Positions 31,706 through 49,383 of a stretch of 49,383 bases of DNA are shown piece after piece; the first letter of the stretch is position 1, and each line of letters begins with the position of its first letter. The position numbers were made by a program, and so were the translations under genes. The DNA is from Konateibacter massiliensis (lineage in GTDB: Bacteria > Bacillota > Clostridia > Lachnospirales > Lachnospiraceae), in NCBI RefSeq assembly GCF_900184995.1, contig NZ_LT860099.1:2825445-2874827 (forward strand). The letters are read 5' to 3'. A model generated the notes under the pieces. That model had not been told where the DNA came from. It saw nothing but the letters and a program-made list of their open reading frames with translations, and ran no database searches.

Positions 31706-31734
31706 TTGACAAATAATGGAGATTAATATAAAAT
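31706..31734 (+). promoter_or_regulatory. Promoter of the cas operon
   Basis: TTGACA, exactly 17 bp, then TAAAAT. Transcription would start near 31741, leaving a leader of about 19 nt before cas6 ATG 31760 with GGGGGG as its ribosome site. Confidence 0.8.
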
Positions 31735-31759
31735 GATGCTAAGAAAGGGGGGATATAAA

Positions 31760-32491
31760 ATGAAATTTTGTTTAGATTTTTATTTACAAGGAAATTATTT
31801 ACACAAAGATTTCAGAAAATGTATTGCCAGCTTCTTCAAGAAGAGTCTAACAGAAGCGAATGAAGGTAAATATTTTGACAGATTTTACAAAGATACTTGC
31901 CAAAAGAACTATACGTGGCATTTAGTAATGCACCAACCTCAATATAAGAAAGATCAAATAATATTGGGTGATAATGAAATCAAGCTTATTGTATCAACAG
32001 ACAATGTAGATGGAACGGGGTTTATATTGTACTCAGCGTTTATGGGGCAGAAGCATAAAGAATTTCCGTTACCAAATTCAAATTCTATGGTATTAAAAAA
32101 TGTTAGCCAACTAAAAGAAAGAATTATTACAAAAGAAAAAGCTTTATTCAAAACCGCTGTGGGAAGCCCCGTTTGTATTCGTGAGCACAATAGAGAAACG
32201 AACAAGGACAGATATTATAGCGTTGTTGATAATGAATTTTCAGCAGTGACAACGGAGGCACTTAAAAGGCAGGCGAAGGAAGCGGGATTTTTAGAAGAAG
32301 ATGTAGAGCAGATCAAATTTATACCGATTCAGTGCAAAAAGATTGTGGTAGAACATTATGCTTGCTACATTGATGCAACAGTTGGAATGTTTGAACTGCA
32401 TGGACCTTCTCTGCTACTTCAGCATTTTTATCAAAATGGAATCGGTTCTCGTCGTTCAATAGGATTCGGAATGATTCAGGTGGCAGATTAA
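31760..32491 (+). CDS. cas6: Cas6 CRISPR RNA endoribonuclease
   Basis: Cas6 cuts the long array transcript within each repeat to make crRNAs with an 8-nt 5' handle (here expected AUGUAAAU). The 243-residue protein has the RAMP-type C-terminal glycine-rich loop GIGSRRSIGFGMIQV. It is the first gene of the operon. ATG 31760 was chosen because the promoter -10 (31729-31734) overlaps the only upstream alternative at 31733. Confidence 0.92.
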   Translation: MKFCLDFYLQGNYLHKDFRKCIASFFKKSLTEANEGKYFDRFYKDTCQKNYTWHLVMHQPQYKKDQIILGDNEIKLIVSTDNVDGTGFILYSAFMGQKHKEFPLPNSNSMVLKNVSQLKERIITKEKALFKTAVGSPVCIREHNRETNKDRYYSVVDNEFSAVTTEALKRQAKEAGFLEEDVEQIKFIPIQCKKIVVEHYACYIDATVGMFELHGPSLLLQHFYQNGIGSRRSIGFGMIQVAD

Positions 32492-32515
32492 AATTGTTAG
32501 GAAGGAGGAGTGACT

Positions 32516-33952
32516 TTGAATGGTAAAAAAGGAAAGTTTAATTCAAAATTGGAAGCTGCAGATTGGCGAACTTCGGCGGCATTGCTAGGACTTGTTAGGT
32601 ATTTAAAGGATCAACGAAAAGAATATTATTATCATGAAAATACTGATGAAATAGAAGAAGCCGAAGATGATGTACTTTATTATAACAAGGAAGATATTAC
32701 GGAAGAAGGATTTCTAAAGTTTGTTGAGTACTATTTTTCAGAAGATATGCACCATATGGAAATTTTAAAAAGGCTAAAACGAGAAGAGTTTTCAGAGGAA
32801 GAGATTAAGGCAATTAACGAGAAGCTAACCGCAAATACCGTTTTAAAAAAAGTATATGGAAAAATTAAGTTTGATGGAAAGAATGTTGAGCTGATTAAAC
32901 AGTTATTAGAAGAGAATAGAGCTATTATTATCAAAGAAACATTTAGAAATAAGAGTAATCTATATAAAAACTTCTGTAATCCTAATCAGTTGTTAAATGA
33001 AGCGCAGACGATTTGCCGATTGAACGGATATTATATTGATTCAGGGAAAAAAGGAAAATCAATAGGATATCAGTTTGACATGAACTCATTTGTGGGACAA
33101 GATAATGCGCTATATGATTTTGTTCCAGCGGGCTTTACAATTGGAAGGGAAGCACTGTTTATCAATGATAACTCAACAATTGAAGATTTAATTGGAACGA
33201 ATGAGCGATTGAAAAAATATGTGAAGGAAGCGTATGTTGATGATAAAACAGGAAACAAAGATGTACGTAGAGCATTTTTTAAAGCGTTAATTGAAGCAGC
33301 TGATTTTATTGACTATGATGTTGAGGTTATATTAAAAGATAGGGAAAAGGACTTTTTTGAAACATTATATGTAAGAAAGAGTAGCATAAGGATATTCAGG
33401 AAAATAAAGAATTACTCTATATTCTGCATTTCTATTAAGGTAACAGACGATTATTATATCAATGTGAACGAAAAGGTAACAGACTCTATTCTTAATATGT
33501 TATTGCTGGATGATTTTATCGATTGGCTTCTAAAAAATAATTTAAATGAAGAAGGACGATATCGATATTTAGTAGATAACCTATTAACTGTAAACATACT
33601 TATCAGACAGGAGATTATGCAAAATAATAAATTAGAGGGAGGTAATGGCCAAATGAATAAAGGAATGAATAGTGCTTATGCAAGTGCGAAGGAAATCGTT
33701 GCTAAACTACCGGACAATAAAGTTTCAAGTTATCGGAACAAGTTAACCAGTGCATTGGTATTTAAGGATTATAACCGGTTTTGTGAGATTTTGTTACAAT
33801 TAGGTAATTATGCAGATATGCAGTTTGATTTTGCATATGGTTTGTTTGAGGATTTTGAGGGAAATAGAGATATAGCATGTGCTTTTATTAATTCATTGTA
33901 CAAGAACGAAGAGAGAACAAAATTAAGAGATGTAGAAAAGGGAGGAATTTAA
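32516..33952 (+). CDS. cas8b: Type I-B Cascade large subunit Cas8b (Cst1-like)
   Basis: The 478-residue protein lies at the large-subunit position between cas6 and cas7. Its N-terminus (KLEAADWRTSAALLGLVRYL) resembles Cas8b1/Cst1 proteins of the I-B Tneap branch. In I-B complexes Cas8b recognises the PAM and recruits Cas3. The start appears to be TTG 32516, with AGGAGGAG five bases upstream; GTG 32510 overlaps that site. The last 100 codons also carry an internal ribosome site and ATG (see Cas11b entry). Family assignment rests on position plus weak motifs. Confidence 0.82.
   Translation: MNGKKGKFNSKLEAADWRTSAALLGLVRYLKDQRKEYYYHENTDEIEEAEDDVLYYNKEDITEEGFLKFVEYYFSEDMHHMEILKRLKREEFSEEEIKAINEKLTANTVLKKVYGKIKFDGKNVELIKQLLEENRAIIIKETFRNKSNLYKNFCNPNQLLNEAQTICRLNGYYIDSGKKGKSIGYQFDMNSFVGQDNALYDFVPAGFTIGREALFINDNSTIEDLIGTNERLKKYVKEAYVDDKTGNKDVRRAFFKALIEAADFIDYDVEVILKDREKDFFETLYVRKSSIRIFRKIKNYSIFCISIKVTDDYYINVNEKVTDSILNMLLLDDFIDWLLKNNLNEEGRYRYLVDNLLTVNILIRQEIMQNNKLEGGNGQMNKGMNSAYASAKEIVAKLPDNKVSSYRNKLTSALVFKDYNRFCEILLQLGNYADMQFDFAYGLFEDFEGNRDIACAFINSLYKNEERTKLRDVEKGGI
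33653..33952 (+). CDS. cas11b: Predicted Cas11b small subunit from an internal start within cas8b
   Basis: Inside cas8b, GAGGGAGG (33635-33642) lies ten bases before an in-frame ATG at 33653. Translation from there gives a 99-residue, mainly helical protein (MNKGMNSAYASAKEIVAKLP and onward), identical to the Cas8b C-terminus. Type I-B systems are known to make the small subunit Cas11b this way, and its size fits. Another in-frame ATG at 33617 has a purine-rich site only three bases away and is less likely. Confidence 0.7.
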   Translation: MNKGMNSAYASAKEIVAKLPDNKVSSYRNKLTSALVFKDYNRFCEILLQLGNYADMQFDFAYGLFEDFEGNRDIACAFINSLYKNEERTKLRDVEKGGI

Positions 33953-33953
33953 T

Positions 33954-34838
33954 ATGGGAAAAAATGCATTAACTTTAACGGCTGTGGCTAATATGACATC
34001 AAACTATTCAGAAAATTTGGGAAATGTATCGAGTGTACAAAAAGTGTTTCGCAATGGCAAGACTTATAGTATGAGAAGTAGAGAGAGCTTAAAAAATGCA
34101 ATTATGGTTCAAAGTGGTATGTATGATGATTTGCAGACACAGGTGGATGGAGCAACACAGAAATTGGTAAATGAAGAAGTGAATGTATCAAACAACCGTG
34201 CATTAGAAGGTGGATATATGAGCACAAAAGGGAATACATATATACGAAAAAGCTCGTTTTATCTGACGGATGCAGTTTCTTGTGAAAGCTTTGTAAATGA
34301 GAGTAGATTTCACAATAATTTATATTTGGCAAGTAATTATGCAGCCTCCAATAAGATAAACCTCCAAGCCAATGCCAAGGAAACAGGGTTGATGCCATAT
34401 CAATATGAATATGATAAGTCACTAAAAGTTTATAGTATTACAATTGATTTGCAGATGATAGGTAAGGATAATAATTTTGAAGCAGAGGAAGCTTCATCAG
34501 AAGAAAAGGCGATTAGAGTAAATAGTATTTTGACTGCGATAGAAAATCTATCATTGATAGTAAAGGGGAATCTGGACAATGCGGAGCCGTTATTCATAGT
34601 AGGTGGATTGTCAGAAAGGAAGACGCATTATTTTGAAAATCTTGTAAGAGTTAAAGAAAACAAGGTGGAGGTTTCGGAAGATTTAATCAAAAGGAAAGAG
34701 GAGGGCTTTCAGGCAGGACTTCTCAAGGGGATGAATTTTGAAAACGAGAATGAAATTATTCAAAAATTAAATCCTATAGCAATGCCTCAGTTTTTTGAAG
34801 TACTAAAAAAACAGATAAATGAGTATTACGGCTGCTAA
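33954..34838 (+). CDS. cas7: Type I-B Cascade backbone subunit Cas7 (Cst2/DevR family)
   Basis: Cas7 copies coat the crRNA spacer as the helical backbone of Cascade. The 294-residue protein has the Cst2/DevR N-terminus (LTLTAVANMTSNYSENLGNV, then FRNGKTYSMRSRESLKNAIM). It begins one base after cas8b with GGAGG in the end of that gene, so translation is tightly linked. Confidence 0.93.
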   Translation: MGKNALTLTAVANMTSNYSENLGNVSSVQKVFRNGKTYSMRSRESLKNAIMVQSGMYDDLQTQVDGATQKLVNEEVNVSNNRALEGGYMSTKGNTYIRKSSFYLTDAVSCESFVNESRFHNNLYLASNYAASNKINLQANAKETGLMPYQYEYDKSLKVYSITIDLQMIGKDNNFEAEEASSEEKAIRVNSILTAIENLSLIVKGNLDNAEPLFIVGGLSERKTHYFENLVRVKENKVEVSEDLIKRKEEGFQAGLLKGMNFENENEIIQKLNPIAMPQFFEVLKKQINEYYGC

Positions 34839-34864
34839 ATCAAGAATTGGAAAGGAGGCAGCTA

Positions 34865-35953
34865 ATGAGAGCATTGAGAATAATTTTGCACCAAAACAGT
34901 GCAAATTACCGAAAAGAAGAAACAATATATAATAAAATGACATATCCATTACCACCCTTATCTACGATTATTGGTGCATTACATGGAATTTGCGGGTATA
35001 CAGACTATCATGAAATGGATATTAGCGTTCAGGGAAGGTATGGTTCTATGCATAGGGAATCATATACGGATTATTGCTTTCTAAATTCGATAATGGACGA
35101 TAGGGGTAAATTGGTGAAAATGAATAATGCAAGCATGCTTTCAACGAGTTATCAAAGGGTTGCGGATGCATTAAAGCCCCAAGGAAATAGCTTTGCAAAT
35201 GAAACTACTGTTTTGGTGCATAATAGAGAACTATTAACAGAATACCAGCAGCTAAAAAAGCTTGCAGTATCAATTGATCAATTTAAGAAGGAAAGAATAG
35301 AGCCTGTATTAGGTTTGATAAAGAAAAGAAAGGCGAACTTATCTATTAAGAAGAAGCAATTTAAAAGAGGGACAATAGAATTTGAACGTCTTACAGCTAG
35401 GGAACAGGAGATTAAAAATCTAGAAAAAGAGATTAATTCTAGGTTAAAGACATATAAAGAAGAAAATTATGAAAAGCCAATTTCAAATTTTCGTTCTTTA
35501 ACGACTTCTCTGAAATATTATGAAGTATTGGATGATGTTAATTTAATCATCCATGTCAAAGCAGAAGATGACATTTTGGAGGATATTCTTGATAATATTT
35601 ATGAGTTAAAAGCTTTAGGAAGAAGTGAGGACTTTGTTTCAGTTGGAGAAGCAAAAATGGTGGAGTTAAGTGATGAACTTAGGGAGGAAGAAGAAGTAAG
35701 TAAGTATGCCGGATATTATGATTTAAACCTTATTCTTTCAAACCAAAATAAGATTTTTACAAAAGATGGAGAAAAACGAAAAATAATTGGAACAAAATAC
35801 CTTATAAACAAAAAATATGATAAGCCGGAAGGGAGACGGATATTTAAAAAAGTAAAGGTGTTATATGCATCGGAAGTTGCGATATATGATACGACAAATA
35901 ATTTGTACATGGATTATGATGGGGAAGAGACATATATTGTTAACTTTTTGTAA
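34865..35953 (+). CDS. cas5: Type I-B Cascade subunit Cas5 (Cas5t-like)
   Basis: Cas5 binds the 5' handle of the crRNA and contacts Cas8. The 362-residue protein starts with the family pattern (MRALRIILHQNSANYRKEE, then TYPLPPLSTIIGALHGICG). It is longer than most Cas5 proteins (usually about 220-260) because of a charged helical insert (about residues 130-210, KKRKANLSIKKKQFKRG, EKEINSRLKTYKEEN). AAAGGAGG fixes ATG 34865; an upstream in-frame TTG at 34847 is rejected. A hairpin follows before cas3. Confidence 0.88.
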   Translation: MRALRIILHQNSANYRKEETIYNKMTYPLPPLSTIIGALHGICGYTDYHEMDISVQGRYGSMHRESYTDYCFLNSIMDDRGKLVKMNNASMLSTSYQRVADALKPQGNSFANETTVLVHNRELLTEYQQLKKLAVSIDQFKKERIEPVLGLIKKRKANLSIKKKQFKRGTIEFERLTAREQEIKNLEKEINSRLKTYKEENYEKPISNFRSLTTSLKYYEVLDDVNLIIHVKAEDDILEDILDNIYELKALGRSEDFVSVGEAKMVELSDELREEEEVSKYAGYYDLNLILSNQNKIFTKDGEKRKIIGTKYLINKKYDKPEGRRIFKKVKVLYASEVAIYDTTNNLYMDYDGEETYIVNFL

Positions 35954-35956
35954 TAG

Positions 35957-36003
35957 GATTAGGGTGCCAAAGAAACCGAAGTTGAAAGTTTGACACCCTA
36001 ATC
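35957..36003 (+). promoter_or_regulatory. Hairpin between cas5 and cas3
   Basis: GATTAGGGTG pairs perfectly with CACCCTAATC (10 bp) around a 27-nt loop that can itself pair (CAAA/TTTG). No T run follows. It sits exactly between the Cascade genes and cas3. Confidence 0.65.
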
Positions 36004-36046
36004 ATAATAGTAAAAGAACAGAAGATAAGAGAGGGGCATAAATAAT

Positions 36047-38326
36047 ATGGATTGGGATAAGTATAACGCAAAGTCTAACAAAACAATTGCGAGACATAGC
36101 AGGGATCTAATAGAGCGATTAGAAATTATAAGAGCGCTTGGCTTAATTCCGAATGAGTATATATATAATATGACAAAGGAAGCTTGCTTGCGTCACGATT
36201 GCGGCAAAGTAAATGAACCTTTTCAGATTAGAGTTAATTCAGAAAAAGAAATCAAAATGATGAGGGAGAAAGAAATACCACATAATGTACTTTCTATGCT
36301 GTTTATTAATCCGAAAGATTACGAAAAGCCAATGGATTATTATAGAATGCTTTATGTGGTGGGATATCATCATAATTATTGTAAAGATGTATTCCAAGTA
36401 TTAAGCGAAGAAAAAACGCTGGTAGATGAATTAATGGAACCATTTCAAAATGAAATTTATGAAATTAGGCGGTTTCGAGATGTTAGGAATAAGGTGTTTG
36501 ATGTAGAAAAAAGGGCTGAACCAAATACAGTATGGATTAAAGGACTATTACATAAATGCGATTATAGTGCCAGTGCAGAGACAGTTGTAGAATACAAAAA
36601 CGATTTTCTAAAAGAATGTCTTCAAAAATTTAAGGAGACAAAACAGCAAAGTAATCAAGAGAATGGTCTGCCGACATTTGAATGGAAAAAACTACAAAAG
36701 GATTGTATGGATAAAACAGAAGAGAATATTATTGTGGTTGCACAGACCGGAATGGGAAAAACAGAAGCGGGGCTACATTGGATAGGTGATAATAAAGGTT
36801 TTTTTGTATTACCCGTTCGAACAGCAATCAATTCTATGTATGACCGGATTAATGAGGAAATCATATGTAAAAAGGATACAGTTCATCGATTGGCGTTATT
36901 ACATTCTGATACAAGGGAATATTATTTGAAAAATGAAAATAATATTTGGGAAAAAAATGAGAATATCAATGAGCACGAGGACAGCGATTTAATCGAATAC
37001 GCTAAACGAAGCAGAGAGCTTTCAATGCCTCTAACAGTATGCACAATGGATCAGATATTTGACTGTGCTTTTCGATATCCAGGATATGAAATGAAATTGG
37101 TTACCTTAGCATATTCTAAAATTGTTATAGATGAGATTCAAATGTATGAGCCAAGAGTATTAGCGTGCCTTATTTATGGACTACAGTTAATACATAAAAT
37201 GGGAGGAAAATTTGCTATTATAACGGCTACCTTGCCACCTTATATACTAAACATGTTAGATTTCTTGCAAATCGAAGTGAAAGAATATATTGATGATGAG
37301 GTAAAAAGACATAAGGTGAAGCTTTTAGAAAAAGAAATAAATGCAGAAGACATATATAATCAGTTTCTTAAAAACAAAAGTGCAGGAAAAAGCAATAAAA
37401 TTTTAGTGGTATGTAATACCATAATGAAAGCTCAGGAATTGTATAATGAGTTGAAGGATAGGATGGGAAATGATGAAAAAATAAATGTATTGCATTCCCG
37501 ATTTATTAAGGGGGAAAGAATTGAACTGGAAGAAGCAATCAGGAAATTCGGAAAGAGTGTAGATGAAAAGGGAAATGTGCACGTAGGAGAGGGAATCTGG
37601 ATCTCTACTTCATTGGTAGAAGCTAGTTTGGATATTGACTTTGACTATTTATTTACTGAATTGCAAGAATTGTCATCTCTGCTTCAAAGATTGGGAAGAT
37701 GTAATCGCCAAGGGCTAAAACCGATTGAAGAAGTCAATTGCTTTATTTACTGCAAAAAGGGAAGGGGCATTTACGACGAGGATATGTTTGAGATATCTAA
37801 GAAGGCTTTACTTGGAATAGAGGATATCATGGAAGGTCGTTATTTGAGTGAAAGCGAAAAAATGGAGTTAATTAACAAGACATATACGGTAGAAACAGTT
37901 GATGAGACTGGATTTATAAAAAAATATAATGAGGTTTTTGATGAACTTAAAGTTATTGCAGCAGAAAGTAAAAGCGATGCAAAAATAAGGGATATTTTTT
38001 CCGTCGATATTATGCCAAGCCCTATTTACGAAAAGAACAAAGAGAAAATAGACGAAACGCTAACAGAGTTAAAGAACACTAAGTCAGGTAGTGTGGAACA
38101 TGTGAGACTTATAAGTGAAATAAGAGACATGTGTGTCTCAATACCTTATGGTTACTACGCTGCGTATATAAAAGCAATAAAAGCTGGGAAGGCAGACAAA
38201 TTAATAGATATTAAGTTAAATAAATATGAAGCCATACCTGTTATGGAATGCCATTATGGAGATGATAAAAAAGGATTTTATCAAAAAAAATTCGACACCC
38301 AAAATCTTTCAGCATATATGTTGTAG
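36047..38326 (+). CDS. cas3: Cas3 HD nuclease-helicase
   Basis: Cas3 is recruited to target-bound Cascade, unwinds the foreign DNA and degrades it. The 759-residue protein has an N-terminal HD nuclease domain (His17, His50-Asp51 in RHDCGK, His107-His108, Asp171) and a superfamily 2 helicase. The helicase shows Walker A AQTGMGKT (231-238), DEIQ box (361-364), motif III TATLPP and motif VI QRLGRCNRQG. All catalytic motifs look intact. GAGGGG lies about ten bases before ATG 36047. The 93-bp gap from cas5 contains a hairpin. Confidence 0.96.
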   Translation: MDWDKYNAKSNKTIARHSRDLIERLEIIRALGLIPNEYIYNMTKEACLRHDCGKVNEPFQIRVNSEKEIKMMREKEIPHNVLSMLFINPKDYEKPMDYYRMLYVVGYHHNYCKDVFQVLSEEKTLVDELMEPFQNEIYEIRRFRDVRNKVFDVEKRAEPNTVWIKGLLHKCDYSASAETVVEYKNDFLKECLQKFKETKQQSNQENGLPTFEWKKLQKDCMDKTEENIIVVAQTGMGKTEAGLHWIGDNKGFFVLPVRTAINSMYDRINEEIICKKDTVHRLALLHSDTREYYLKNENNIWEKNENINEHEDSDLIEYAKRSRELSMPLTVCTMDQIFDCAFRYPGYEMKLVTLAYSKIVIDEIQMYEPRVLACLIYGLQLIHKMGGKFAIITATLPPYILNMLDFLQIEVKEYIDDEVKRHKVKLLEKEINAEDIYNQFLKNKSAGKSNKILVVCNTIMKAQELYNELKDRMGNDEKINVLHSRFIKGERIELEEAIRKFGKSVDEKGNVHVGEGIWISTSLVEASLDIDFDYLFTELQELSSLLQRLGRCNRQGLKPIEEVNCFIYCKKGRGIYDEDMFEISKKALLGIEDIMEGRYLSESEKMELINKTYTVETVDETGFIKKYNEVFDELKVIAAESKSDAKIRDIFSVDIMPSPIYEKNKEKIDETLTELKNTKSGSVEHVRLISEIRDMCVSIPYGYYAAYIKAIKAGKADKLIDIKLNKYEAIPVMECHYGDDKKGFYQKKFDTQNLSAYML

Positions 38327-38335
38327 GAGGTGCTT

Positions 38336-38827
38336 ATGGAGAAACAAATCACAGGTGTCATGGTATATTACTATGCAGTGTGTAAGAGAAAGCTCTGGTA
38401 TTTTTACCATGAAGTCACAATGGAACACGATAACGAGAATGTGCAGATAGGTAAAATAATTGATGAGGGGACATACTTGCGTGATGATAAACATATCAAT
38501 ATTGACAATGTTATAAATATTGATTTTATTAGAAGCAAGAAAGTACTTCACGAAATAAAAAAGAGCAATAAAATAGAGGAGGCATCTATTTTACAGGTCA
38601 AATATTATTTGGATTATTTAAAGCAAAGAGGTGTTGAGGTAACAGCAAAAATTGATTATCCGTTATTGAAAAAAACAATAGAAGTTGTTTTAAACGATGA
38701 TGATATTGTGGAACTTGAAGCAGTTCTCTTAGAAATTCAAAATGTTGTCAGCCATGAATGTCCGCCGACTATAAACAAAAAAAGTATCTGTAAAAAGTGC
38801 GCTTATCATGACTTGTGCTACATATAG
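38336..38827 (+). CDS. cas4: Cas4 exonuclease (spacer processing)
   Basis: Cas4 trims prespacers and helps choose PAM and orientation during adaptation. The 163-residue protein has the [4Fe-4S] cysteines (Cys16 in YYAVCKRKLW and a C-terminal group CKKCAYHDLC) and RecB-type nuclease motifs (HEIKKS and QVKYYLDYLK). It starts ten bases after cas3 with TAGGAGG. Cas1 follows 14 bp later. Confidence 0.93.
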   Translation: MEKQITGVMVYYYAVCKRKLWYFYHEVTMEHDNENVQIGKIIDEGTYLRDDKHINIDNVINIDFIRSKKVLHEIKKSNKIEEASILQVKYYLDYLKQRGVEVTAKIDYPLLKKTIEVVLNDDDIVELEAVLLEIQNVVSHECPPTINKKSICKKCAYHDLCYI

Positions 38828-38840
38828 AACGGAGGAGAAT

Positions 38841-39833
38841 ATGAAGAGAAGTTTATATGTCTTTAATAATGGAGCAATGAAACGAAAAGACAATACATTA
38901 AGATTTACAGACGAATCGGATAATAGCAGGGATATTCCGATTGAGAATATAGGCGAAGTGTATATTATGTCGGAAACAAATTTTAATACAAGTCTGATAA
39001 ATATCTTTTCACAGTATGGAGTAGTAGTGCATTTTTTCAATTATTATAGCTTTTACATTGGAAGCTTCTATCCGCGGGAAAGATTGGTCTCAGGTGATCT
39101 TCTGGTAAAGCAGGTAGAGGCTTACTCGAATAATGAAGCAAGAATGATAATTGCAAAGAAGTTTATAGAAGGGGCAGCAGACAATATTTATCGAAATCTG
39201 AGATACTATAACGGGAGAGGAAAATCCCTTCAGGGAGTTATGAATGAGATTGATAATTTACGTTCCCAGATCTCTTCATGTACAAGCATACAAGAGTTGA
39301 TGGGATATGAAGGAAATATTCGTAAAAAATATTATGCTGCATGGAATGAAATTGTCAATCAGGACATCGACTTTAAAAAGCGCGTAAAAAATCCACCTGA
39401 TAATATGATTAATACATTAATATCTTATGTAAACACACTGATTTATACGAAAGTATTGGCAGAAATTTATCAGACTCAGTTAAATCCAACAATTAGTTAT
39501 CTGCATGAGCCAGGAACAAGGAGATTTTCACTTTGTCTTGATATTGCGGAAATATTTAAGCCGATTATTGGAGACAGACTGATATTTTCATTGTTGAATA
39601 AAAATCAGATTAACGAAAAAAGTTTTACAAAAGAATTGAATTATTTGCACTTAACCAAGGAAGCCTCTAAGTTGATTGCGGCAGAGCTTGATGCAAGGCT
39701 TCAAACAACAATCAATCATAAGGATTTGAATAAACAGGTATCCTACCAATATTTAATGAGGCTTGAATGCTATAAAATAGTAAAGCATTTGGTAGGCGAA
39801 AAGGAGTATGAACCCTTTAAGATATGGTGGTAG
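38841..39833 (+). CDS. cas1: Cas1 integrase
   Basis: Cas1 with Cas2 inserts new spacers at the leader end of the array. The 330-residue protein has the metal-binding residues in the usual order: Glu in LMGYEGNIRKKYY, His in YLHEPGTRRFSLCLD and Asp in the same block (IAEIFKPIIGDRLIF). GGAGGAG fixes ATG 38841; an open extension from 38808 overlaps cas4. It looks fully functional. Confidence 0.97.
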   Translation: MKRSLYVFNNGAMKRKDNTLRFTDESDNSRDIPIENIGEVYIMSETNFNTSLINIFSQYGVVVHFFNYYSFYIGSFYPRERLVSGDLLVKQVEAYSNNEARMIIAKKFIEGAADNIYRNLRYYNGRGKSLQGVMNEIDNLRSQISSCTSIQELMGYEGNIRKKYYAAWNEIVNQDIDFKKRVKNPPDNMINTLISYVNTLIYTKVLAEIYQTQLNPTISYLHEPGTRRFSLCLDIAEIFKPIIGDRLIFSLLNKNQINEKSFTKELNYLHLTKEASKLIAAELDARLQTTINHKDLNKQVSYQYLMRLECYKIVKHLVGEKEYEPFKIWW

Positions 39834-39845
39834 ACAGGAGGATTT

Positions 39846-40124
39846 ATGTACGTTATACTTGTATATGATATATGCGGGGAAGGTAATGGGCAGAAGGTAT
39901 TAAATAAAACTTTTAAGACTTGCAAGAAATATTTGAGTCATATCCAAAATTCCGTTTTTGAAGGGGAACTAACAGAGGCGCAAATTATGAAGTTGCATAA
40001 GGAACTAGATGCAATAATACGAAAAGAGATTGACTCGGTTATTTTGTTTCAGAGCAGGAATGAGAGATGGCTAGAAAAAAGTATGTGGGGAATGCAAGAG
40101 GATTTGACATCTAATTTTTTGTAA
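39846..40124 (+). CDS. cas2: Cas2 adaptation protein
   Basis: The 92-residue protein has the Cas2 ferredoxin-like fold start (MYVILVYDICGEGNGQKVLN) with the conserved aspartate. It bridges two Cas1 dimers during spacer integration. It starts 12 bp after cas1 with CAGGAGG and is the last gene before the leader and array. Confidence 0.96.
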   Translation: MYVILVYDICGEGNGQKVLNKTFKTCKKYLSHIQNSVFEGELTEAQIMKLHKELDAIIRKEIDSVILFQSRNERWLEKSMWGMQEDLTSNFL

Positions 40125-40304
40125 TGATTGTCGACCTATAATAGTGTAAAAAGTATGGGGGGATGACAATCTGCATATTATCGGGCAAAAAGGTGATTTG
40201 GATTAAATAAAGAGCTTGTTTTTAGGAAAAAATTAAGGGTTAAGTAGAGGTCGACAAAATAGGTGCGTAGAAGTGCTGTGAATACAGGGCGTATGCAGGT
40301 ACGG
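40125..40304 (+). promoter_or_regulatory. CRISPR leader
   Basis: This non-coding stretch of 180 bp between cas2 and the first repeat is the expected leader: it should hold the array promoter and the sequences that steer new spacers to the first repeat. It contains a 10-bp inverted repeat, TTGTCGACCT (40128-40137) and AGGTCGACAA (40248-40257), and a TATAAT (40137-40142) without a clear -35. The array promoter could not be fixed. Confidence 0.8.
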
Positions 40305-43300
40305 ATAGAAGTAGAACCATAGTGGAATGTAAATTTATTCGCTTGCTTAAAGATGCCGAATGCAAACGGAAATAGAAGTAGAACCATAGTGGAATGTAAA
40401 TAAGGATAATATGCCACTTGAGATGATTGCAGCTATTATAGAAGTAGAACCATAGTGGAATGTAAATCAAACATGGTTAACAAAAAGAATTATCAGGTTA
40501 AGATAGAAGTAGAACCATAGTGGAATGTAAATCAATAAACATTAGGCTAAGTATATGTCAATGAGGCAATAGAAGTAGAACCATAGTGGAATGTAAATAT
40601 AGCACAAATGTAATTGAAGTAAATGCAGAATTACATAGAAGTAGAACCATAGTGGAATGTAAATCTCTTTATAGCATCTGATAGGATTTCTTTCAGTTTA
40701 TAGAAGTAGAACCATAGTGGAATGTAAATTTGTAGCCTTGTATGTGCCTATTCTAGCACTATAACATAGAAGTAGAACCATAGTGGAATGTAAATGATAT
40801 CCCCCTACATGGGTTACGCCATACATCGGCATATAGAAGTAGAACCATAGTGGAATGTAAATCGAAAAATCTATAAAGGAAGAACATGTATTGATTGATA
40901 GAAGTAGAACCATAGTGGAATGTAAATGATGTAGAGCAATATTCTATAGATGAAGCGTACGATAGAAGTAGAACCATAGTGGAATGTAAATGTGATTATT
41001 TTTGTCTGGATAACCACTCATTACATTATAGAAGTAGAACCATAGTGGAATGTAAATTTACTTCGGCAATTTTTTCATCGGTGTATGCGTTTGTATAGAA
41101 GTAGAACCATAGTGGAATGTAAATGTTAGACAGACTATTTGATGCCGGTATAGGTGCGGCAATAGAAGTAGAACCATAGTGGAATGTAAATAGCGAAAAA
41201 GACTTCCAGATTGCTAAGACGTTGGAATAGAAGTAGAACCATAGTGGAATGTAAATTAAAAACAGATGTTGATACCCTTAAGGGAAAATTTATAGAAGTA
41301 GAACCATAGTGGAATGTAAATTGTGCAGGAAGCGCATCAGCAGGCAGAGCTTGTATATAGAAGTAGAACCATAGTGGAATGTAAATAGGTGGATTTGCTT
41401 CTAACGCTTACAAGGACAAGTCATAGAAGTAGAACCATAGTGGAATGTAAATGACGGTGAAGTCTACGATGCAATCGAACAGAGCTCATAGAAGTAGAAC
41501 CATAGTGGAATGTAAATATTGAAGATTTTGACTTAACACAAATTGATGAAGTATAGAAGTAGAACCATAGTGGAATGTAAATGTTACAGTTACCGAACAG
41601 CAGATTATGCAGTCATTCATAGAAGTAGAACCATAGTGGAATGTAAATATGGGAGCCAAAAACGCAGCTATCATGAGTGATAAATAGAAGTAGAACCATA
41701 GTGGAATGTAAATGTAATTGCTAAAAACATTAAAGTTTTAGCAGATGCATAGAAGTAGAACCATAGTGGAATGTAAATTAGCAACTAATATTGTTGCAGG
41801 CATAGGGCAATACCATAGAAGTAGAACCATAGTGGAATGTAAATTTATTAGAACAACGGTGGGACATGATAATAGCTTTCCATAGAAGTAGAACCATAGT
41901 GGAATGTAAATTACTAACTTTGAGTTAATGTCAGAAGCATTATTTATAGAAGTAGAACCATAGTGGAATGTAAATTTTAATTTTATTCAAATTACAAATG
42001 CGAGTGGAACGATAGAAGTAGAACCATAGTGGAATGTAAATCAAACTGAAATAGTAAGAAATAAAGTTATTGAATTAGATAGAAGTAGAACCATAGTGGA
42101 ATGTAAATGTTTCATTAATTGACGAATTTCAAATTGAGTTTTAAAATAGAAGTAGAACCATAGTGGAATGTAAATAAGGTTATATATGTATTGATTACAT
42201 AGGTTGTAAGCATAGAAGTAGAACCATAGTGGAATGTAAATCGTATAAGCCTCATACACGCAATTTACATCATATTCGATAGAAGTAGAACCATAGTGGA
42301 ATGTAAATAAAGGTACGGTTGATAAGATTTTAAGCGGAGTAACAATAGAAGTAGAACCATAGTGGAATGTAAATGAAATATTAAGCAGCAAAAACAAGTC
42401 ACAGAAAGCGATAGAAGTAGAACCATAGTGGAATGTAAATCCAATCAGCGTGCCCATATCTGCTATGGCATTTGTTAATAGAAGTAGAACCATAGTGGAA
42501 TGTAAATAACTAATATCTGAAATGATATTCCACTCCTGAATATATAGAAGTAGAACCATAGTGGAATGTAAATTGGATTAGAATATCAGGCTTTAAATTC
42601 CATCCGACTATAGAAGTAGAACCATAGTGGAATGTAAATATAACTTCTCTGGTTTAGAAATCCTTGGAAACGACAATAGAAGTAGAACCATAGTGGAATG
42701 TAAATAGATAGCCATTGACTTTGCAATAGCAGAGTTGGTAATAGAAGTAGAACCATAGTGGAATGTAAATTTCATTGAATTCTATATTTTCATTTTTTTT
42801 ATCATATAGAAGTAGAACCATAGTGGAATGTAAATATTTTTGTAGCTCGAGAAATCTTTAAAACTCCGTATAGAAGTAGAACCATAGTGGAATGTAAATG
42901 TATCTACTAAGTTTCTAACAAGTGACATATTTCATAGAAGTAGAACCATAGTGGAATGTAAATTCTGTTGTTAATTCAAAGTACAGCGGTTCATCCTGAT
43001 AGAAGTAGAACCATAGTGGAATGTAAATTCTACTAATGTCAGTTGATTTTCTTCGCAATTTGCATAGAAGTAGAACCATAGTGGAATGTAAATAAATTTA
43101 GCTCAAGAACGGTAAACGGTGTCACATTAGATAGAAGTAGAACCATAGTGGAATGTAAATTCTATTGCTTGTTGCTCGTTCATACTCCACCTTCTTATAG
43201 AAGTAGAACCATAGTGGAATGTAAATCCAGTCGATACGATTTGTTTACCATTCCACATTCCGCCATAGAAGTAGAACCATAGTGGAATGTAAATCTAAAA

Positions 43301-44148
43301 TTGAAGAGCTGTAATAAAAATATGCTTCCATAGAAGTAGAACCATAGTGGAATGTAAATTTCAAGAATTTTGTCTGGTCAAGAAGCCCTATTGATAGAAG
43401 TAGAACCATAGTGGAATGTAAATTTATCCACCTCCTGCGGCTTTCTTTGCCAATTTGAATAGAAGTAGAACCATAGTGGAATGTAAATATAAATATCTCC
43501 TCTTTTACACATAATATCTCTCCATAGAAGTAGAACCATAGTGGAATGTAAATTCAATGACTTCTACTATATTATCTTGATTTAACATTATAGAAGTAGA
43601 ACCATAGTGGAATGTAAATTTTTCAAATGGTATCTTTTTAATCTCTTGTTTCATATAGAAGTAGAACCATAGTGGAATGTAAATTTTTATCAAAGGCCAA
43701 AATAATATTTTACTAACTAATAGAAGTAGAACCATAGTGGAATGTAAATAAAGCACTTGCCGTCCCTGTATCCATACCTATCGTTCATAGAAGTAGAACC
43801 ATAGTGGAATGTAAATCTTATTGATGTTCGTGGATTTTATCAATATTACAAAAATAGAAGTAGAACCATAGTGGAATGTAAATTGATGTTGTGTCAAGGG
43901 CAATCACTTCCCTGATACTATAGAAGTAGAACCATAGTGGAATGTAAATAAATTCACTTATATACATGTCATTCCTCCTTCCGGGTATAGAAGTAGAACC
44001 ATAGTGGAATGTAAATCCTTTCAAAATATCAATAAATTCTTGGTATTCAAACATAGAAGTAGAACCATAGTGGAATGTAAATTTATATGAGTTTTCATAA
44101 TACCCATAATTCGCTTTTATAGAAGTAGAACCATAGTGGAATGTAAAT

Positions 44149-44186
44149 GTACATTAAGGGGTACTTCAATGAGGTAGGCTTGCGTT
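44149..44186 (+). other. Spacer 59, homologous to spacer 125
   Basis: This 38-bp spacer encodes YIKGYFNEVGLR in frame 2. Its first 35 bases differ from spacer 125 at nine positions: eight third-codon positions plus the first base, which lies outside the shared codons. Confidence 0.9.
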
Positions 44187-47100
44187 ATAGAAGTAGAACC
44201 ATAGTGGAATGTAAATCAAAGTATGGAGTGGACATGTATTTGAAAGGAAAGCATAGAAGTAGAACCATAGTGGAATGTAAATAGATGAAATATCAAGTGA
44301 TAATTTTGGCTTGTGTTCGATAGAAGTAGAACCATAGTGGAATGTAAATCTGAAAAAGTTTAGCGACTTGGCATACCGAGGATTTCATAGAAGTAGAACC
44401 ATAGTGGAATGTAAATTGGACTGTACGGATTTTAACTCAAGCTCTGTGAAGCATAGAAGTAGAACCATAGTGGAATGTAAATATAGGTAGAGACAATTGG
44501 GTATATAGGCAATTCTTTATAGAAGTAGAACCATAGTGGAATGTAAATCTAACAATTCGGCGTCAACTGTAGAAGCGGAGCCAATAGAAGTAGAACCATA
44601 GTGGAATGTAAATGAGTATTCGGAATAGCGCGGCATCTTACAGACTGTATAGAAGTAGAACCATAGTGGAATGTAAATGTAACTTATATCCGCACAATTT
44701 GCATGCTTTGATATAATAGAAGTAGAACCATAGTGGAATGTAAATTGTTTTGTTATGTTTTATTTATTACTTATTATGAGTAATAGAAGTAGAACCATAG
44801 TGGAATGTAAATCAAGACGGGGTTGTTATAACATTCCTGCCAAGTACACATAGAAGTAGAACCATAGTGGAATGTAAATTCGGTTGAAAATGCTAAAGAG
44901 CGAGATAAAATAACAATAGAAGTAGAACCATAGTGGAATGTAAATTCTTGTATTTCGATTTGTTCTTTATTTTTTAGCTCTAATAGAAGTAGAACCATAG
45001 TGGAATGTAAATTTGTATTGTATGTCCTTAGACGCATTGGCTGTGGAATAGAAGTAGAACCATAGTGGAATGTAAATACGATTGGTTGGGGGCATACTGG
45101 TACAGTTGACGGAATAGAAGTAGAACCATAGTGGAATGTAAATTGACATATACTCACTTTCATTTCTAAATGATTGCATAATAGAAGTAGAACCATAGTG
45201 GAATGTAAATGAAGAGCCACCCGAGCCAGATCCAGAGCCAGACCCAGATAGAAGTAGAACCATAGTGGAATGTAAATAAACTTGTTATTGAAAACAACAA
45301 GACCGGACGGAAATAGAAGTAGAACCATAGTGGAATGTAAATTTCTTCGATGAAGAGGACTTGGAATACTACCTTAAATATAGAAGTAGAACCATAGTGG
45401 AATGTAAATTTTCTCCTCAAGAAATACAACTGAATTAATAATTCAGATAGAAGTAGAACCATAGTGGAATGTAAATTAACGATAGGCGATTACAATCAGA
45501 CAAACGAACCAAATAGAAGTAGAACCATAGTGGAATGTAAATTGATTAGTAATTAAACTTGTAGCCATAAAAAAGCCATAGAAGTAGAACCATAGTGGAA
45601 TGTAAATTAGCGTTCAACGCTTTCTCCTCGTTCGTAGTTCCATAGAAGTAGAACCATAGTGGAATGTAAATAGAACACATTTAATATCACTTTTATTTAT
45701 GAGTGTTATAGAAGTAGAACCATAGTGGAATGTAAATTATGACCTTCCGCCAACTGGTGGTAGTGGTGAGGTATAGAAGTAGAACCATAGTGGAATGTAA
45801 ATGTTGGATTCAAAAACTAAGTCATTTTGTATATTTTATAGAAGTAGAACCATAGTGGAATGTAAATTTATTTGATACCTAACACCTTTAGTCATTTATC
45901 ATTATAGAAGTAGAACCATAGTGGAATGTAAATATTGTTATTGTTTTATATCCTCTTACACCAGTCTGTTATAGAAGTAGAACCATAGTGGAATGTAAAT
46001 TCATATTTCCTACTAAATGAATAATTTCCTTCTGTAATAGAAGTAGAACCATAGTGGAATGTAAATCTGAATTCTATCGGAGCGACACAGAAATGGACTA
46101 ACCATAGAAGTAGAACCATAGTGGAATGTAAATAAAAGTAGAGAAGAATTTAAATCTGGGATAAATTGTATAGAAGTAGAACCATAGTGGAATGTAAATT
46201 TTCTTATTTCAATTTTTTATAACCAATTTAGTGCATAGAAGTAGAACCATAGTGGAATGTAAATTTTATTGAAAAGATTTTAGAATATATGGAAAACCTT
46301 ATAGAAGTAGAACCATAGTGGAATGTAAATGAAGCAGATAGGCGAGAAATCGAAAACACTTACAATAGAAGTAGAACCATAGTGGAATGTAAATCTTGCT
46401 CGTAGTAAGACGATTACTAAAATCGATTGGCATAGAAGTAGAACCATAGTGGAATGTAAATTTTTCAAAAGCGGAGCTAAAAGGCGAAGACATTTCATAG
46501 AAGTAGAACCATAGTGGAATGTAAATATATTTATTAAATTATAATCATTAGTTCTTAAAGTATAGAAGTAGAACCATAGTGGAATGTAAATCGTAATACA
46601 AGGGGTTTCATCACCGTTCTTTACATCATAGAAGTAGAACCATAGTGGAATGTAAATAACATAAATGCCGTCTTTTACAAACTGAGAAACAGTATAGAAG
46701 TAGAACCATAGTGGAATGTAAATTAAATAATAGTCAAGCAATAACGCTACATCAAAATTAATAGAAGTAGAACCATAGTGGAATGTAAATATTATTCTTA
46801 TCATATTAAAATAATACTTCATAATAATAGAAGTAGAACCATAGTGGAATGTAAATTCATATGAACTAACCATACCACTCCGCAAGCCTCCATAGAAGTA
46901 GAACCATAGTGGAATGTAAATTTGAGTGCAAGATTTAACTTTGACATCGGTATTCCAGATAGAAGTAGAACCATAGTGGAATGTAAATCCTTTATGGTTT
47001 AACTCATTACTCTTCGTCATCCACATAGAAGTAGAACCATAGTGGAATGTAAATAGATAAGTTAAACTTCTTAGGAAAGAAAAAGGATAAGATAGAAGTA

Positions 47101-48512
47101 GAACCATAGTGGAATGTAAATGCAAAGGAATGTCAAATAAATATGGTGTACCAGAAGAATAGAAGTAGAACCATAGTGGAATGTAAATTGTACTCCGGTG
47201 ATGGTTCAAAACCTTCAAGCTCTTATAGAAGTAGAACCATAGTGGAATGTAAATTAACATGTTTAGATAGCCATGTCCACGCATCAGTATTATAGAAGTA
47301 GAACCATAGTGGAATGTAAATATGGATTGCACAATTGCGGTTGATATGGCTAATAGAATAGAAGTAGAACCATAGTGGAATGTAAATGTGGATATGCCTT
47401 ATGTTCGATTTTCAATTAATACTGATAGAAGTAGAACCATAGTGGAATGTAAATACAACAGGTGCCGTGGCAACTGTATCAAGTGACTCACATAGAAGTA
47501 GAACCATAGTGGAATGTAAATCTAGAAGGACAATTATTGCGTGCAGAAAGTAACTGATAGAAGTAGAACCATAGTGGAATGTAAATGTTCGAGAAGCTGG
47601 TATAAATATTTTTTCTTCCTGATAGAAGTAGAACCATAGTGGAATGTAAATCTTTGACATCTTCCCTTATATTCCTGAGATCGTTTTTATATAGAAGTAG
47701 AACCATAGTGGAATGTAAATTCGCTTATATCCGTATTTTTAAAATTTGCCGTAATCGATAGAAGTAGAACCATAGTGGAATGTAAATTATCATATTTTTT
47801 CGTCTCTCTATCCGCTCGGATATATAGAAGTAGAACCATAGTGGAATGTAAATGCGGGCACAATTAGAAGCTGGAAAAACCGGTATTCAATAGAAGTAGA
47901 ACCATAGTGGAATGTAAATATTGAATTGCAGATTTGATTCATTGTGGAAACCCCCAATAGAAGTAGAACCATAGTGGAATGTAAATAAGTGTTAAAGGCT
48001 TCCCTGAGTGGTCAGACAATCGTATAGAAGTAGAACCATAGTGGAATGTAAATTCTCTTCCTTAATTCTTCTGTTAAGTCTTCAAATGTATAGAAGTAGA
48101 ACCATAGTGGAATGTAAATACAGGAGATGACCAGTTCATCAAGTATTATAACAACATAGAAGTAGAACCATAGTGGAATGTAAATTTTTTAAACTCAATT
48201 CCTAATTTGTCGCACATTTCATAGAAGTAGAACCATAGTGGAATGTAAATGAAACGAAGAGGTGTATAGAAGAGAAGCACTTTTGGAGATAGAAGTAGAA
48301 CCATAGTGGAATGTAAATAATATTACGGAGTAGGCTCTTCTTCGATTTTCTCAATAGAAGTAGAACCATAGTGGAATGTAAATCTTACAGAGACACTTAT
48401 TGAAGCGTTAGAAGAATCATAGAAGTAGAACCATAGTGGAATGTAAATTAAATAGCGGCTCATACCATTCAACTGTGTCTCCATAGAAGTAGAACCATAG
48501 TGGAATGTAAAT

Positions 48513-48547
48513 ATATATTAAAGGTTATTTTAACGAAGTCGGCTTGC
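48513..48547 (+). other. Spacer 125, homologous to spacer 59
   Basis: This 35-bp spacer encodes YIKGYFNEVGL in the same frame and register as spacer 59. Being further from the leader, it should be the older acquisition. Confidence 0.9.
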
Positions 48548-49383
48548 ATAGAAGTAGAACCATAGTGGAATGTAAATCTTGATTTTGAAAAAGGTTTTAA
48601 AGTTGAAATTTCATAGAAGTAGAACCATAGTGGAATGTAAATATCGTCTTGGTCGGGTAATACTTCGTTCCATTCCAATAGAAGTAGAACCATAGTGGAA
48701 TGTAAATAATTAATTGACACAGACAAAGAGAAAACAATATACTATAGAAGTAGAACCATAGTGGAATGTAAATCGGAATGATATCCTTTGCCCCGTTGGC
48801 TTGTAAACACATAGAAGTAGAACCATAGTGGAATGTAAATAAACAAAGATACGATGATTGGCTTTATAATGATGCTGATAGAAGTAGAACCATAGTGGAA
48901 TGTAAATAAGTAAAATCCGTCCATATAATTTTCCTCCTTCAAACATAGAAGTAGAACCATAGTGGAATGTAAATTAAAGAGTTAGTATTTTCATTAAGCG
49001 TTTCACAAGCATAGAAGTAGAACCATAGTGGAATGTAAATGAAGAATATGAACCTGTGATATATAACGAACAGCAAATAGAAGTAGAACCATAGTGGAAT
49101 GTAAATTATTTATGTCTAGATCCGAAATTGCTGATTATAAAAATAGAAGTAGAACCATAGTGGAATGTAAATGGATATGGAATAGGGTATGGAAAAAGCG
49201 CTGTCAATAGAAGTAGAACCATAGTGGAATGTAAATACGATTGTTGTTGTTGCTATGAAACCACCCGATAAGATAGAAGTAGAACCATAGTGGAATGTAA
49301 ATAAGGATGATTGGCAAGTATGGTTTTATCGCTTATAACATAGAAGTAGAACCATAGTGGAATGTAAATAAGGTAAAAGGTCC

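Follow-up and report, generated by a model that had tools for sequence, protein, structure and literature searches.

Two spacers of one CRISPR array encode the same eleven amino acids with largely different codons, which raises the question of what sources, and what history, left both of them in the array. The locus lies in the window, by which we mean the whole analysed stretch of 49,383 nucleotides, and the two spacers are the following.

Spacer 59, 44149..44186, plus strand: 38 bases, reading YIKGYFNEVGLR from the second base onward.
Spacer 125, 48513..48547, plus strand: 35 bases, reading YIKGYFNEVGL from the second base onward.

Both spacers were found at the coordinates and under the numbers proposed by an earlier sequence-only reading, aligned from the same first base and both encoding YIKGYFNEVGL. 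At offset 0 on the same strand, 26 of 35 bases are identical, and the mismatches (spacer positions 1, 4, 10, 13, 16, 19, 22, 25 and 28) occupy a single codon phase. Eight of these nine differences are silent within YIKGYFNEVGL and stand at third codon positions, as had been claimed; the claim can be refined in that the ninth, at base 1, occupies the third position of the codon before Tyr and falls into the same phase. If the protospacer-adjacent motif (PAM) is CCN, this preceding codon would be CN[G/A] (Leu, Gln, Pro or Arg), and since G and A are always synonymous there, all nine differences would be silent. No other frame has this property: the opposite-strand frame of the same phase contains a stop in spacer 125, so the source gene most likely runs in the direction of the array, and the only further frame without a stop in either spacer (minus strand, 1) changes many residues. 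Codons, strand and register are thus common to both spacers and their divergence is silent only, which bears out the proposal that the two sources are related and constrained at the protein level.

The array and the genes preceding it are laid out as follows.

Type I-B cas operon, 31733..40124, plus strand: cas6b, cas8b, cas7, cas5b, cas3, cas4, cas1 and cas2.
cas6b, 31733-32491, plus strand: Cas6b, E 4e-100.
cas8b, 32510-33952, plus strand: Cas8b, E 6e-143, with a model named Cas8a1/Csx8 slightly better at 5e-147.
cas7, 33954-34838, plus strand: Cas7b, E 4e-63.
cas5b, 34847-35953, plus strand: Cas5b, E 2e-155.
cas3, 36047-38326, plus strand: Cas3b, E 6e-274.
cas4, 38330-38827, plus strand.
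cas1, 38808-39833, plus strand.
cas2, 39846-40124, plus strand.
Presumed leader, 40125..40304, plus strand: 180 bases from cas2 to the first repeat, assigned by position.
CRISPR array, 40305..49383, plus strand: 138 identical 30-base repeats within the window and 137 complete spacers of 34-39 bases.

The system is of type I-B by gene content, namely a Cas8b-type large subunit together with cas3, cas5, cas6 and cas7, and by its cas4-cas1-cas2 adaptation module, which adjoins the repeat array; one cas1 was found in the genome. The window ends at 49383 in a single-N assembly gap inside a spacer, and its last 9 bases equal the first 9 of the record (contig C7). The ends of the 2.87 Mb piece seem to join within the array, the true continuation of which is likely the start of the same chromosome record; there the array goes on at L009:1-1387, giving 159 repeats and 158 spacers in total, with the spacer numbers 139-158 depending on this closure. 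Beyond the one-N gap lies a cluster of eight tRNA genes (L188:158-1016). In the translated and shuffle comparisons described below, spacer 138 was taken as a 46-base join with the overlap kept; it figures in no reported match, and when closed to 37 bases it agrees with no other spacer at more than 15 bases at offset 0. In the whole array 156 repeats are exact and three of the last four are altered; together with the position of the presumed leader, this suggests that the young spacers lie at the low-number end. By array order, spacer 59 would be newer than spacer 125, and spacer 21 newer than spacer 146. Several family genomes (some of L112-L138) carry arrays of diverged forms of the same repeat.

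When the 158 spacers were compared pairwise in translation, 59/125 came first (score 60) and only one further pair, 21/146, rose above the background (score 55, next 36).

Spacer 21, 41649..41683, plus strand: reads MGAKNAAIMSD; partner of spacer 146.
Spacer 146, L009:528-563, outside the window: reads MGAKNAAIMSD; partner of spacer 21.

Aligned at base 1 on the same strand, spacers 21 and 146 share 33 of 35 bases, and the only mismatches, at positions 21 and 24, are both silent in MGAKNAAIMSD. This is a further real same-site pair. In each pair both spacers start at the same base, which is consistent with PAM anchoring and, together with the CCT at the mapped targets of spacers 41 and 113 described below, lends indirect support to the PAM that the sequence-only reading expected beside the site; spacer 139, which lacks a conserved PAM, speaks against it.

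No convincing homologue of the source genes of 59/125 and 21/146 was detected in the phage, plasmid, IMG/VR and genome searches. The strict pattern YIKGYFNEVG had no match in IMG/VR or in genome_contigs, a collection of 84,980 species, each represented by a single genome, with contigs of at least 3 kb. The shorter GYFNEVG occurred in 27 IMG/VR stretches, none with YIK before it or L after it; 15 of these belong to one family, WWT[FS]LGYFNEVGE, which presumably resembles phage Gp15. A relaxed form of the motif matched one IMG/VR stretch and nothing in genome_contigs; the single match, FVKGYFDDIGL, has 21/38 and 23/35 bases alike with the two spacers and was rejected as showing no sign of relation. 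IKGYFNE was present in 11 stretches, none going on as VGL. For the second pair, strict MGAKNAAIM was not found in IMG/VR, and 22 occurrences of AKNAAIM included none that was convincing. Searches of named-phage DNA returned 8 records for spacer 59 (best E 2), 32 for spacer 125 (best E 0.4) and 4, 2 and 0 for parts of the array (best E 0.02), none of them convincing, while the named-phage protein search gave 2 weak records and none. Plasmid DNA (searched with 40335-48300 only, short of spacers 125 and 146) yielded 3 weak records, the plasmid protein search for 59/125 yielded none, and the three short translations hit 0 families in PHROGs and Pfam. In 299 family genomes, with as many as 3 mismatches allowed, spacers 59 and 125 occurred in their own array only; the 21/146 protein queries likewise hit nothing but their own array in overlapping sets of 41, 396 and 392 genomes. 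The 59/125 protein queries in 41 relatives and 120 family genomes found their own array and four weak matches elsewhere (E 0.22-1.2), which proved unrelated when read. A lead to PolC, read as YVKGYFNDRGI in one family genome, was also dropped: in three genomes of the genus PolC has YVKNYYEERGI, or V at the end, with 13-19 mismatches in 34 bases. PolC also had 21 matches in phage records, none of them annotated and most of them short, which look to be pieces of bacterial DNA.

The kind of DNA sampled by this system can be approached through those spacers for which targets were mapped.

Spacer 41, 42964..42998, plus strand: reverse-strand match to QDEPLYFELTT of a phage terminase large subunit.
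Spacer 45, 43227-43264: identical at 38/38 bases to a beta-lactamase-family (serine hydrolase) gene of the host itself, located on a different contig (G000:C6, about 860,371).
Spacer 113, 47721..47757, plus strand: prophage baseplate/tail-fibre-like gene in a same-genus genome (G299), 33/37 identical.
Spacer 117, 47987-48023: 32/37 match to the host's own 600-residue surface-protein-like gene.
Spacer 121, 48251-48288: glutamate dehydrogenase gene of the host itself, 37/38 identical with a single, silent mismatch.
Spacer 139, L009:63-99: small terminase subunit at the protein level, score 49, 11 mismatches in 37.

Comparison of spacers 1-137 with three genus genomes gave own-genome places outside the array for spacers 45, 117 and 121 and one prophage place, that of spacer 113; in another genome of the genus (G144) there were three places, one a homologue of the spacer 45 gene and two merely repeat-like. 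Against 396 family genomes, with two candidates scored per genome, the array had matches in 21 genomes, mostly other repeat arrays, and this comparison resolved the terminase place of spacer 41 and another homologue of the spacer 45 gene. In 30 family-genome stretches, translated scores of at least 40 came from the spacer 41 and 45 genes and one noise-level match of spacer 64.

Where a mapped target looks mobile, it is a structural or packaging gene of a phage. Spacer 41 differs from its terminase target at 4 of 35 bases, all in third position, with QDEPLYFELTT identical and CCT upstream. CCT also precedes the target of spacer 113, where two of the four mismatches are in third position and two are not. 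Spacer 139 was placed by protein-level comparison with related phages where DNA searches did not place it; the PAM place of its homologues is variable (ATT, GCC, CCC). Spacers 139 and 41, distant in the array, correspond to the two terminase subunits, small and large respectively, of one type of phage packaging module. Spacer 147 perhaps targets baseplate J, at a score of 43 that is within noise, with CCA upstream and seven of eleven differences in third position. With reversed spacers as control, the maximum score was 46, and 7 of 158 gave matches at a threshold of 42, against 17 of 158 real spacers; CC stood upstream in none of 11 control matches. The four non-third differences of the uncertain spacer 147 match and the two of spacer 113 speak against a general silent-only rule. 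Among the own-genome matches, spacer 45 has CCAT upstream, which puts CAT at the PAM place and CCA one base too far, and is possibly a slipped, harmless self-spacer. Spacer 121, with AGA and hence no CC at the PAM place, looks like DNA from a close relative rather than a phage, and spacer 117, whose target is identical in protein (VLKASLSGQTI), has CAA upstream. Since these three spacers match the host's own non-phage genes, phage origin does not hold for every spacer; for the two pairs, a mobile invader is nevertheless the source that we infer, with CCN as the probable PAM at their sites.

The terminase site of spacer 41 provides a yardstick for silent divergence at one phage site. Among 28 terminase relatives from IMG/VR, the site was read in 30 locus rows, some of them duplicates. 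QDEPLYFELTT is identical in 13 of the 30 rows (duplicates included), and within those 13 rows third positions account for 58 of 70 base differences. The PAM place holds CCT in 28 rows and CCC in two. Glu-Gly continues the site in 30/30 rows, and because the CC is complementary to the two bases that open the Gly codon, a silent change cannot remove it; the target of spacer 113 has the same Glu-Gly arrangement. When 12 sites were compared (spacer 41 and 11 loci, two obvious duplicates being left out), 12 of the 66 pairs differed at 8 or more codons and 16 differed at third positions only. The 59/125 pattern is therefore within what old lineages can show at a single, ordinary, conserved phage site.

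Several other origins of the pair have to be weighed against these observations. Although 158 spacers give 12,403 pairs, the probability of a chance likeness between two unrelated spacers is negligible: the nine differences would share one phase with a probability of 7e-6, none of 1000 arrays with shuffled spacers attained the offset-0 identity (25 of the first 34 bases; maximum 24), and the translated score of 60 compares with at most 36 in the background, from which 21/146 at 55 stands apart. Copying of one spacer within the array followed by drift is highly improbable, for nothing but the similarity itself favours it, an untranslated spacer would not put 9/9 differences into one codon phase, the lengths are unequal (38 vs 35), and 138/138 repeats of the window are identical. 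A chromosomal gene of related bacteria, rather than a phage or plasmid, is an unlikely source of the pair; such kin DNA has a precedent in spacers 45, 121 and 117 with their own-gene matches, but the strict motif lacks an exact match in the 84,980 species of genome_contigs, no convincing protein match exists in the 41 relatives and 120 family genomes, and the sole look-alike is the distant PolC.

We also consider quite unlikely the narrow arms race suggested earlier, in which one lineage would have escaped spacer 125 through selected silent changes and the array would then have been updated with spacer 59. The array order, with spacer 59 the newer, fits this course, as do the nine differences, two of which (positions 1 and 4) lie within what we take to be the type I seed. 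However, 8 of the 11 codons differ where unrelated codon choice would give 6.4-7.1 (P(>=8) = 0.24-0.40), whereas an escape mutant requires one or two changes; terminase sites of different phages are as divergent; and the differences between spacers 21 and 146 fall outside the assumed seed. Because the number of changed codons is within the expectation for unrelated codon choice, selected escape is not required, and the arms-race claim is not supported. The divergence between spacers 59 and 125 is old and lies between lineages rather than reflecting a recent escape mutant.

The explanation that we regard as probable is that one type I-B system made independent, PAM-anchored acquisitions from two diverged invaders at a homologous, protein-constrained site. 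An invader with a CCN-flanked site would have yielded spacer 125 first. The site would code for an invariant protein stretch, at which the invaders differ by silent bases only. A diverged relative, different at nine bases of the site, was probably no longer matched by spacer 125, as nine mismatches, two of them in the presumed seed, suggest. The site would thus have been left open and sampled again at the same PAM, giving spacer 59, and the same course would have been taken at a second gene by the closer relatives behind 21/146. A CCN motif would agree with the literature, in which CCN is given as the acquisition PAM of the C. difficile type I-B system (PMC8406132) and CCN and CCT are given for type I-B (PMC8482600).

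A more speculative reading, to which we attach little weight, is that the protein code at some sites locks both the non-silent protospacer bases and the PAM, which cannot then be lost silently, and thereby leads to repeated capture. If the ATG of the 21/146 site is internal, a Pro codon (CCN) would be required there, and the 59/125 site would have its PAM partly in a fixed codon; that this one array has two same-site pairs could reflect recurrent, PAM-locked sites of this sort. Spacer 139, with its variable PAM place, is a counter-example. Per 40 kb, four stretches of phage or prophage-region DNA contain 1876-2852 copies of CCN and 763-980 of CCT, and by simple arithmetic two same-site pairs are expected among the 12,403 if roughly 12-46% of spacer pairs stem from related invaders sharing the site. 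These counts imply that two such pairs do not demonstrate a hotspot or priming.

The 59/125 case overturns nothing established. It offers a clean host-side record of one cell line sampling a single coding site in two diverged invaders, and translated comparison among the spacers of one array is a way to find such records independently of the invaders. Among the open-access papers listed by our literature searches, we recognised none on two same-array spacers differing only silently at one site. In its type, the system resembles the type I-B systems of the Clostridium kind with a CCN PAM (PMC8406132 and PMC8482600), sharing with them a Cas8b-type operon and, at spacers 41 and 113, CCT; unlike there, the PAM here is deduced from few sites, with the CCA of spacer 147 uncertain and spacer 139 lacking a conserved PAM. 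Spacers matching chromosomal genes of other organisms are described by Brodt et al. 2011 (PMC3285040), and spacers 121, 45 and 117 likewise match ordinary chromosomal genes, but they do so within the host's own genome, where CC is absent from the PAM place. The closest parallel comes from Heidelberg et al. 2009 (PMC2612747), who describe a CRISPR-targeted lysozyme/lysin site of hot-spring viruses, in a conserved gene, where virus reads vary silently or conservatively, some being only 70% identical to the spacer in DNA, and for which evasion was proposed. Silent variation is common to both cases; there, a spacer is set against virus reads, whereas here both variants are spacers of one array. 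The phenomenon is thus already known from the virus side since 2009, and the present array is its host-side mirror image.
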